This document shows positions 55,631 to 59,335 of a DNA stretch of 64,000 nucleotides, piece after piece. Source of the DNA: an uncultured SAR116 cluster alpha proteobacterium. Its GTDB lineage: Bacteria > Pseudomonadota > Alphaproteobacteria > Puniceispirillales > Marisalimonadaceae. A model generated the notes under the pieces. It worked only from the letters and a program-made list of their open reading frames with translations. It was not told the DNA's origin and did not search any database. Made by a program: the position numbers and the translations under genes. Each line of letters begins with the position of its first letter. The first letter of the stretch is position 1. Location: contig CACNEF010000001.1 of the NCBI GenBank assembly GCA_902619485.1, positions 496,001 to 560,000 on the forward strand, read 5' to 3'.

Positions 55631-56380
55631 TTAGTCTGAACACACAGGACATTGGTTATTTTTTATAAGTTTGATTTTATCTAGATTTAGAGTTAACCCA
55701 TCATATAAAAATAAATTTCCTGCTGTAGATTGATAATTTTTAAAAGCTATTTCTTTTATGGCCTCATTAACTTGCATACTTCCAATTAAGCCTGTCACTG
55801 GTCCAATTATTCCAGCCTCTCTGCAATTAGTAATTGGAGCTTTTTCATTAGTTCTTGGAAAAATACATTCATAACAAGGGTAATTTTTGTTTAATCCACT
55901 TTTCCAAATGGCTAATTGACCTTCCATTTGTACAGCAGAGCCAGAAATTAAAATTTTTTTGCACTTGTGTGATAAAAAATTTAAAATATACTTAGTTTCG
56001 GAATTGTCACAACAATCAAAAATCAAATCAAAATTACTAACATCTATTGATTCATCAAAAAGTATTTTTTTGGAAGTAATTGAAATATTTGGATTTATTT
56101 TGAGACACTCTTGTACTAAATTTTCAGCTTTACTATTTCCTATGTGATTATTTTTATGAGCGATTTGTCTGTTTAGGTTACTAATTTCAACAATATCTTG
56201 ATCGTAAATCTCTATATGTCCAAACCCTGCTGCAGAAGCGTAAAGTGCAACTGGACAACCTAAACCACCAGCTCCAACAATTAAACAATTGGTGTTAAGT
56301 AATCTTTCTTGACCTTCCTCATCAAAGTTAGGAATGATTACCTGTCTTGCATATCTATTAAGATCGTCATCATTAAGCAT
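55631..56380 (-). CDS. MoeB/ThiF-family adenylyltransferase
   Basis: A 249-residue E1-like enzyme that adenylates the C terminus of a small sulfur-carrier protein (MoaD or ThiS). The nucleotide-binding GAGGLGCPVALYASAAG and the DIVEISNLNRQ loop are intact. Two zinc Cys pairs are visible (CYECIF and the terminal CPVC), and the candidate catalytic Cys lies in PITNCREAG. Whether it serves molybdopterin or thiamine cannot be told without a neighbouring carrier gene. It overlaps the coaBC 3' end by eight bases. Confidence 0.9.
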   Translation of the reverse strand: MLNDDDLNRYARQVIIPNFDEEGQERLLNTNCLIVGAGGLGCPVALYASAAGFGHIEIYDQDIVEISNLNRQIAHKNNHIGNSKAENLVQECLKINPNISITSKKILFDESIDVSNFDLIFDCCDNSETKYILNFLSHKCKKILISGSAVQMEGQLAIWKSGLNKNYPCYECIFPRTNEKAPITNCREAGIIGPVTGLIGSMQVNEAIKEIAFKNYQSTAGNLFLYDGLTLNLDKIKLIKNNQCPVCSD

Positions 56381-57818
56381 TTACAGCTCTTTTGTTGTAA
56401 TTAATTAAAAGATCGTTAATTCTATTAGCTAAATGGTAAGCCACAGATTTCTTACTTTGTTTTTCCCATTGCTCATAATTATTTTTATAAATAAGAAATA
56501 CTTTATTAAACTCTTCCCCAAAAACTTTATTATTGCTGACATCATTAGCAATTATTAAATCAACATTTTTTGATATTAATTTAGAATAGGAATTATCTTT
56601 GATATTACTTGTTTCTGCTGAAAATCCAATTACGATCTTCGGTCTTAACTTGCTTTTAGAAATTGTTTCTAAAATATCTGGGTTTTTTATGGTTTCGAAT
56701 AGCAATTTTTCTTTGGTTTTTTTAATTTTATTATTTGTGTCAATTTTATTATTTGATGATGTTTTGGGTATTAATCTCCAATCTGCTACTGCTGCACAAC
56801 AAATTAAAATATCAGCAGGGAGTTGTTGAGTTACGTTATCTAACATTTCCTGAGCAGTTTTAACTTTTATTACATTATGACAATTCGGAAAAGGAATACT
56901 TACAGGTCCACTAATCAGAGTTACTTTTGCTCCTCTTTTTGTCAATTCAGAAGTAATTTCAAAACCTTGTTTCCCAGATGATTTATTGCTTACAAACCTT
57001 ATTGGGTCAATTGCCTCTACCGTAGGCCCTGCTGTTATTATAACTGAAATATCTTGAAATTGATTAGAAAGTTTTTGTTTTTCCCTCATGTATGAAATGA
57101 TAAACCCAAATATTTCTCTCGGCTCTGGAAATCTTCCTTTTCCGCTCTCGCCACACGCCATATCTCCTGTATCTGGCTCTATAAATTCTATACCTCTTTC
57201 TAATAGTTTTTTGTAATTGTCGCGTGTTGCCAAGTTATTCCACATAACAGGGTTCATTGAAGGAGCCATAATTATTTTTGAGAAAGAAGCAAGCAAAATA
57301 GTACTTGCTAAATCATCAGCTATTCCATTCGCGAGTTTTGCCATTATATTTGCAGTTGCGGGAGCAACTAAAATTATATCTGGGCTTCTAGCTAAGTTTA
57401 TATGATTCATTTTTGTCTCGTCTTCAATAGAAAATAAATCAATATAACATTTTTTCTCATTTAAGCTTGTTACTAACAAAGGTGTGATAAATTTCTGAGC
57501 TGATTTAGTCATAACAACGTCAAGCTCAATGTCAGTTTTCTTAATCAATCTAATTATTTCAAGAGATTTATATGATGCTATACCTCCACTAATAATTAAC
57601 AAAATTTTAAATTTAAAATCATGCAATTTTTGTGTCGGTAAAAAATGTTCAATGTTTATATCTAGATATGAACTCAGTTCTAAAACATCTTTATGTTTAG
57701 TGCTTGGTATTTTATTAAGCTTTTTCCAATTTGAAATTGCAGAGGGTTTGATTTTTAATTTTTCTGCGACAGCACCTGTTCCACCAAGTAAAGAAATAAG
57801 TTGAGAGATTTTATTCAT
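56373..57818 (-). CDS. coaBC: CoaBC (phosphopantothenoylcysteine synthase/decarboxylase) with N-terminal helix-turn-helix
   Basis: CoaBC joins cysteine to 4'-phosphopantothenate and decarboxylates the product in coenzyme A synthesis. From about residue 68 the frame is standard: flavin-binding SGGIASYKSLEI, HINLARSPDIILVAPATAN, APSMNPVMWNN and ACGESGKGRFPEP (CoaC), then ITAGPTVEAIDPIRFVSNKSSGKQG and FETIKNPDIL (CoaB). Residues 1-62 are extra: GGTGAVAEKLKIKPSAISNW reads as a Cro/YdaS-like DNA-binding helix-turn-helix. The fusion has no stop between the parts. I start at the ATG at 57818; the longer ORF begins with intergenic-looking sequence. A TTG just before the CoaC part is an alternative start. 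Confidence 0.9.
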   Translation of the reverse strand: MNKISQLISLLGGTGAVAEKLKIKPSAISNWKKLNKIPSTKHKDVLELSSYLDINIEHFLPTQKLHDFKFKILLIISGGIASYKSLEIIRLIKKTDIELDVVMTKSAQKFITPLLVTSLNEKKCYIDLFSIEDETKMNHINLARSPDIILVAPATANIMAKLANGIADDLASTILLASFSKIIMAPSMNPVMWNNLATRDNYKKLLERGIEFIEPDTGDMACGESGKGRFPEPREIFGFIISYMREKQKLSNQFQDISVIITAGPTVEAIDPIRFVSNKSSGKQGFEITSELTKRGAKVTLISGPVSIPFPNCHNVIKVKTAQEMLDNVTQQLPADILICCAAVADWRLIPKTSSNNKIDTNNKIKKTKEKLLFETIKNPDILETISKSKLRPKIVIGFSAETSNIKDNSYSKLISKNVDLIIANDVSNNKVFGEEFNKVFLIYKNNYEQWEKQSKKSVAYHLANRINDLLINYNKRAVNA

Positions 57819-57886
57819 GAGCAAAACTACATAATTATAATAATAAACTACAATAACTGAAAAATATGAAAAATAAATGAAATTTT

Positions 57887-59335
57887 TCATTTATTTGATA
57901 AAATTTCATCAATTTTCCTAATTATTTCAGGGATTTTCAGTAAAGCTAGTTTGTTTTTATGAAACCATTCTTCTAAGACTTTAAATGGGTCGTGTGTATC
58001 AGTAATCCATTTATGTATTAATGGTCTGGACAATTCCCACATATTTATATCTGGATTTATTTGTCTAGTTGTTCCTTCAGCCATTAACATATTTTTTTGT
58101 AATAGTGTAAATTGTGGTTGCACTTCAATGTTAAAATTTTTTGATAAATTCAGTATTTGACCTAGCAATTTAGCTAAAGAAACTTCACCAATAGGTTTAT
58201 TTAAAATAGGTGTAGAAATTGCTCTTATTGCTTGAGAGAGATGATCGTGGCAAATATCTTTACCTAACATATTTGCTTCATCATGTATTTCAACAACTTT
58301 CTTATAATTTTTATTTAAAAGATAAGTAAGTAATAATGCTAGAAATTGCCTGTCATTATTTGATAGTCTGCCCATGATACCAAAATCAATAGGTACCAGT
58401 GCTCCTTCCTTATCAATTAGAATATTTCCGGGATGCATATCCCCATGAAAGAAACCATCACGAAAAACCTGGAGGAAGAAAACTTCTGTGCCTATTTCTG
58501 TTAAATTTTTAATATTATGTTTAGAGGCCTTGAGGGATTCTAAATCATCAATTCTAATCCCATCTATAAATTCCAGAACAAGCATATTTTTAGTTGTAAA
58601 CTCCCAGTAAACTTTGGGAACTCTATAATTATGATGATCTTTGAAATTTTCAGCAAGTTCATCCGCTGCAGAAGCTTCTAATGTTAAATCAAGCTCATTC
58701 AAAGAAACTTCTGATAATACCTCTACATTTTTTGGAAGCTTGAGTCTTTTTATAGTTGGAATACAAAATTCTAAAAACTTGGTAATCCAATAAAAAAAAG
58801 TGAAGTCTCTAAACAATTCTTTATGTATATTTGGCTTTAATATTTTTATCGCTACTTTTTTTCCATTTTTTAGGATTCCTGTGTGGACTTGAGCAACAGA
58901 CGCGCTTGCGATAGGATTATCTTCAAAGAAAGCTAAAGTTTCTTGAAGAAACTTTTGATTTTCATCCTGAATAATTTTTCTCGAAATAGAATTTGAAAAA
59001 GGTTTTAATTTACCTTGTAATATTTTAAGTTCATCACATGTTTTTTTTCCAAGAATATCAGGTCTTGTTGACAAAGCCTGTCCAAATTTTATATATCCAG
59101 GCCCCAAGTTGATTAAAACATTTGAAAGATTTTTTCCAATTTCTTTTTGATTGTTATTTCCAAAAATAAAATTTAAAATTTTTAAAATTAATTCTATTTG
59201 TTTATTAAAATATTTGTTTTCAATTAGAAGAGCTAAAATGCCAGTTCTAATTACTTTAATAAATACTAAAAAACTTTTGATTAAAAAATATGGTATTTTC
59301 CATACTGGGTATTCTAGCTTTTTTTTAATCTTCAT
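57887..59335 (-). CDS. ubiB: UbiB/ABC1-family ubiquinone biosynthesis protein
   Basis: UbiB is an atypical kinase-like ATPase required for ubiquinone synthesis. The family motifs are KFGQALSTRPDILG near residue 80, ASASVAQVHTG (the Ala-rich loop replacing the P-loop), LVLEFIDGI, GDMHPGNILI and PIDFGIMGRL. The protein has 482 residues, with a possible C-terminal amphipathic helix. It is one base from ubiE, and the pair with coaBC is conserved in alphaproteobacteria. Confidence 0.95.
   Translation of the reverse strand: MKIKKKLEYPVWKIPYFLIKSFLVFIKVIRTGILALLIENKYFNKQIELILKILNFIFGNNNQKEIGKNLSNVLINLGPGYIKFGQALSTRPDILGKKTCDELKILQGKLKPFSNSISRKIIQDENQKFLQETLAFFEDNPIASASVAQVHTGILKNGKKVAIKILKPNIHKELFRDFTFFYWITKFLEFCIPTIKRLKLPKNVEVLSEVSLNELDLTLEASAADELAENFKDHHNYRVPKVYWEFTTKNMLVLEFIDGIRIDDLESLKASKHNIKNLTEIGTEVFFLQVFRDGFFHGDMHPGNILIDKEGALVPIDFGIMGRLSNNDRQFLALLLTYLLNKNYKKVVEIHDEANMLGKDICHDHLSQAIRAISTPILNKPIGEVSLAKLLGQILNLSKNFNIEVQPQFTLLQKNMLMAEGTTRQINPDINMWELSRPLIHKWITDTHDPFKVLEEWFHKNKLALLKIPEIIRKIDEILSNK

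Follow-up and report, generated by a model that had tools for sequence, protein, structure and literature searches.

Several enzymes are known to act also as repressors. In BirA, NadR and PutA a metabolic or biosynthetic enzyme and a DNA-binding domain are joined in one polypeptide, and the operator lies at a gene of the enzyme's own pathway. To our knowledge no enzyme-repressor is known in the pathway of coenzyme A (CoA), and in the open-access papers searched no description was found of a CoaBC or other phosphopantothenoylcysteine enzyme fused to a helix-turn-helix (HTH), ribbon-helix-helix (RHH) or other DNA-binding domain. The phage Cro repressors, in turn, are small, free-standing DNA-binding proteins with no enzyme attached. 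Ordinary CoaBC (TIGR00521) has been described from Mycobacterium smegmatis among others (PDB 6TGV), and the mycobacterial enzyme is a dodecamer on which CoA and CoA thioesters act as inhibitors (PMC7794376). Here, a coaBC gene of the SAR116 cluster is described which carries a Cro-type HTH domain at its N-terminus and is preceded by a predicted operator array.

The window, which is the whole stretch of 64,000 nucleotides analysed, stems from an uncultured SAR116 cluster alphaproteobacterium of the order Puniceispirillales. Its coaBC frame is on the minus strand and is open over 56373-57890, with an ATG at the upper limit (57890). Relatives share only the ATG at 57818 as a start and do not conserve the 24 codons above it. 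In 61 loci the start was located 9-15 residues ahead of the first GG of the HTH, the distance being exactly 10 residues in 29 of them. The HTH-coaBC coding sequence read from this start occupies 56373..57818 (-; 481 aa, stop included), of which residues 71-481 make up an intact CoaBC. The frame scored 396.2 bits against TIGR00521 (cut-off 219.7) and contained both PF02441 and PF04127, which places it among the CoaBC enzymes. The CoaC domain (phosphopantothenoylcysteine decarboxylase, PF02441) covers approximately residues 71-245 (57084..57608, -) and the CoaB domain (phosphopantothenate-cysteine ligase, PF04127) approximately residues 256-470 (56409..57053, -). The catalytic motifs were kept in both domains (MNHI, PSMN and ACGE in CoaC, and NKIKK); in the A1 alignment H139 and N189 were invariant and C222 and K364/K366 nearly so. 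The roles of these motifs and residues are presumably those generally assigned to CoaBC. The last 8 bases of coaBC (56373-56380) are shared with the start of a MoeB/HesA/ThiF-like gene (55631-56380), an overlap that suggests translational coupling of the two genes.

Residues 1-51 (57666..57818, -) constitute the Cro-type HTH domain. The NCBIfam family NF046037 (carph-isopro) was matched with 44.8 bits by the N-terminal 69 residues and with 39.9 bits by the whole frame, both above the cut-off of 38. In the Pfam families YdaS_toxin and P22_Cro the same 69 residues scored just under the thresholds (27.2 bits vs 30 and 26.7 bits vs 30.2, respectively); the domain is related to both families without being a member by Pfam's rule. 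AlphaFold2 predicted four helices at residues 3-10, 14-21, 25-34 and 39-51, with a pLDDT of about 82-90 in the full-length model and a mean of 86 when the domain was modelled alone. The best structural match of the full-length model was the M. smegmatis CoaBC. For the N-terminal domain, the nearest solved protein by profile was the Cro of Xfaso 1 (3bd1, E 4.4e-6), which was also the nearest by fold (Z 7.3, rmsd 2.1 over 54 residues), followed by the Cro proteins of N15 and P22. The Foldseek E-value was weak (0.03) for so small a domain, and the argument is therefore carried by the profile match. The HTH-fold enzymes HppE and MPnS were also among the structural neighbours, so that DNA binding cannot be concluded from the predicted Cro fold by itself. 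The first-pass annotation had proposed that about 62 extra residues of a Cro/YdaS-like type were fused to a CoaBC beginning at about residue 68. The open frame, the profile scores and the predicted fold bear this out, and the boundaries were right within a few residues, with homology to CoaC beginning at residue 71.

A CoaBC match was found in 112 of 136 Puniceispirillales genomes, and the HTH was present at every intact coaBC N-terminus examined in the four families (f1-f4) of the order. The exceptions were genes truncated where their contig ends, and a single short contig from a contaminated assembly (L110, L111, L122). This last locus, an HTH-less second CoaBC in G097 (L122), was left uncounted because its contig measures 3 kb and the genome is 7% contaminated. 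Neither a stop codon nor a separate HTH gene was found between the two parts in any intact relative. In the sample of other Alphaproteobacteria the matches began at about residue 71 or were plain CoaBC without the HTH. Of the matches listed from 398 genomes of Pseudomonadota, none but that in the genome of the window fitted the whole HTH-CoaC profile. Outside the order, a match that seemingly extended across stops into an HTH (G340, L123) proved to be a plain 406-aa CoaBC with no HTH gene upstream. Within the window's genus, dN/dS was 0.17 for the HTH, 0.11 for CoaC and 0.155 for CoaB, compared with 0.36 for residues 51-66 of the variable linker (residues 52-70; 57609..57665, -), in which the pLDDT fell below 50 at residues 62-66. 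The low values mean that the N-terminal extension is translated and selected; the HTH is under purifying selection. In the CoaBC tree, families f1 and f2 were placed apart from f3 and f4. These rows are deviant in composition, and the fusion may have been gained either once or twice.

Upstream of the gene, a predicted operator array, AAATGAAAAATTTCATTTATTTTTCAT, was detected at 57866..57892 (-), where it overlaps the stop codon of ubiB. It was the only match in the window at three or fewer mismatches (0.01 expected) and is conserved upstream of coaBC in the genus. The array holds most of a 26-bp palindrome, AAATAAATGAAA-AA-TTTCATTTATTT (57871-57896), and stops two bases short of a promoter-like TTTTCA-18-TATAAT (57834..57863, -) between the operator and the start, which has 10 of 12 consensus bases, a match no better than chance in so AT-rich a region. 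A UbiB motif was present in the upstream gene at 59 of 60 loci tested; since the array is located between two genes of a conserved cluster, it would act on coaBC and not on the whole cluster. Across the window's genus the element takes the form AAATGAAAnnnTTCATTTATTTTTCAT. When this was searched in 40 genomes at one mismatch or less, all 16 matches were upstream of coaBC, and its core palindrome was found in 25 of 32 f1 loci, compared with 0.11 by shuffling and none in the control interval.

The 29 loci of families f2-f4 contained 68 exact TTCACA/TGTGAA half-sites in the 100 bp upstream of the start (2.9 kb altogether), while shuffled regions gave a mean of 1.57 and a maximum of 6. With one mismatch allowed, at least two half-sites were present in every one of these loci. 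The preferred spacings were 9-10, 19-20 and 31-32 bp, corresponding to approximately one, two and three helical turns. Thirteen palindromes were located upstream of coaBC in these families, and the flanks, 225 kb in total, contained none. In f1 and f3, some of the arrays were degenerate. A conserved and nearly coaBC-specific palindromic element, which we predict to be an operator, thus adjoins the gene. This feature was absent from the first-pass annotation and backs the function proposed there.

A parallel case was detected in rhizobia. The CoaBC of Bradyrhizobium and of another member of the Hyphomicrobiales, both from the first search for relatives, displayed a FitA-like RHH extension at the N-terminus. 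Rhizobial CoaBC proteins scored 61.6, 62.2, 56.9, 60 and 45.2 bits against PF22513 (FitA-like RHH; threshold 27), and the fusion extended over the whole length in 42 of 79 matching genomes of family f174 and occurred also in family f177. The rhizobial loci with this domain are L055, L058, L146, L156-L184, L213, L279-L283 and L287. Most of the RHH-coaBC genes are directly preceded by a distinct array of their own (TGATTGCAnTGCAATCA; TGATTGCA-n-TGCAATCA and variants of it). The operator of Neisseria FitA, with its TGATAGCA-like half-sites, forms no part of the argument here. In the loci counted, nearly all of them from f174 and with the longer-linker fusion L213 taken as fused, the half-site GATTGCA preceded 28 of the 33 fused genes and one of the 32 unfused ones (P = 3.5e-12, a value that overstates independence because the f174 genomes are related). 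In the CoaBC tree the RHH proteins clustered together (support 100/99), separate from every HTH protein. Short frames of 51-110 aa with matches to the RHH only were seen at L212 (G594:C49), L214 (G570:C49) and L215 (G519:C19), the one in G594 lying approximately 600 bp upstream of an unfused coaBC; such frames may represent remnants of the fusion or versions of it in which the parts are separate. The two fusions share their N-terminal position on CoaBC, and both have an upstream array; the FitA-like RHH is unrelated in fold to the Cro-type HTH of SAR116, and its TGATTGCA half-sites differ from the SAR116 operator. It is hard to see, other than through autoregulation, why the same terminus of one enzyme should bear unrelated DNA-binding domains in two lineages, each with an operator in front of its own gene.

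The HTH might instead be a structural or vestigial appendage and the upstream palindromes the sites of an unrelated, separate regulator. HppE and MPnS are precedents for an HTH fold within an enzyme, and in genera g2 and g4 of family f1 (L108, L109) the HTH is kept with no recognisable operator upstream. We nevertheless regard this as improbable, given that palindromes precede HTH-coaBC and none was found upstream of 32 HTH-less alphaproteobacterial coaBC genes, that the operator follows the DNA-binding fusion gene by gene in f174, and that selection on the HTH is as strong as on CoaB. It is less probable still that the HTH is made or acts mainly as a separate short protein, with CoaBC restarted internally and the fused form minor. 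In-frame TTG or ATG codons near the start of CoaC occur in many loci, and an internal TTG had been considered earlier as the start of the CoaC domain. Such codons were scattered and unconserved in position, were absent in 5 of 61 loci, and few were preceded by a Shine-Dalgarno-like sequence; these findings, together with the uninterrupted frame at all intact loci, speak against both that start and a separate protein.

HTH-CoaBC might also act in trans on a wider regulon which, besides its own gene, would include pantothenate or cysteine genes. Six exact palindromes were found in 13 SAR116 genomes, of which five were upstream of coaBC and the sixth was away from it (G060:C22). In the same genome a cysteine synthase-like gene is preceded, at a distance of 144 bp, by a single-mismatch palindrome (L232, position ~1229; G060:C2:19629-19643). 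Cysteine is a substrate of CoaB, and this site is a single instance, possibly due to chance. Against a wider regulon, no orthologous second target recurred among 21 single-mismatch sites, most of which were inside long reading frames, and the panB and coaX loci that were retrieved had no palindrome upstream. Among the matches listed in an order-wide search for triple half-site arrays (at most one mismatch), all were upstream of coaBC, in 8 genomes. We find additional targets unlikely, and the simplest reading of the site distribution is that HTH-CoaBC would be a local autoregulator. Of the two kinds of target proposed in the first-pass annotation, the enzyme's own gene is accordingly well supported at the sequence level, and the other CoA genes, as judged from panB and coaX, are not.

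No match to panB (PF02548) was obtained in the SAR116 genomes G135, G119, G130, G125, G068 and G060, several of which are more than 95% complete, and coaX was present in all six. The missing panB suggests pantothenate auxotrophy in these organisms, in contrast to the B5 synthesis genes reported in all SAR116 genera (PMC8547437).

The function of HTH-CoaBC may be depicted as follows: it is probably, and we hold this with good confidence, a bifunctional enzyme of CoA biosynthesis that also serves as a local transcription factor, most likely self-repressing, and binds at its upstream array. Regulation of its own gene is well supported at the sequence level, because the HTH is real, conserved and selected and a palindromic predicted operator is immediately upstream; the location and near specificity of the array and the independent RHH case add to this support. 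We infer the physical binding of the HTH to the array, repression and not activation, an oligomer that spans the array, and control by a ligand. The Cro-type heads would be brought together by the oligomeric CoaBC body and would bind the inverted half-sites that are arrayed next to the coaBC promoter, in the gap between ubiB and coaBC. By analogy with BirA and NadR, the bound protein would most likely repress its own gene once its amount, or that of the end product, is sufficient. Catalytic activity and assembly into a dodecamer are known only for the mycobacterial CoaBC (PMC7794376). If the SAR116 protein had the same dodecamer-like assembly, many HTH heads could occupy several phased half-sites, which fits the arrays. 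The dodecamer and its inhibition by CoA thioesters (PMC7794376) also make ligand control conceivable, and control might be tuned by CoA, CoA thioesters or substrates at the CoaB and CoaC sites. The data fit equally well with autorepression by the amount of protein, in which no ligand would take part. The more general proposal, that CoaBC has at least twice, with a Cro-type HTH in SAR116 and a FitA-like RHH in rhizobia, become a CoA-responsive autorepressor acting as a multi-headed oligomer on helically phased arrays, is in our judgement evenly balanced.

If true, transcriptional feedback would be built into an enzyme of the CoA pathway itself. The regulator would apparently be the enzyme, whose predicted operator is readily testable, and the same solution would have been reached twice with unrelated DNA-binding domains, in an abundant clade of the surface ocean and in rhizobia, for which genetics is available. 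Two operator motifs are also supplied for annotation. Compared with described systems, HTH-CoaBC resembles the phage Cro proteins of Xfaso 1, N15 and P22 and the carph-isopro/YdaS-type domains in the profile and predicted fold of its N-terminal domain, which unlike free-standing Cro is fused to an enzyme. With ordinary CoaBC it shares both catalytic domains and their motifs, and differs in the DNA-binding domain which ordinary CoaBC lacks. Like BirA, NadR and PutA, it combines catalysis with a DNA-binding domain in a single conserved polypeptide and has a conserved predicted operator at a gene of its own pathway; these three proteins are outside the CoA pathway, whereas the target of HTH-CoaBC is apparently its own gene only.
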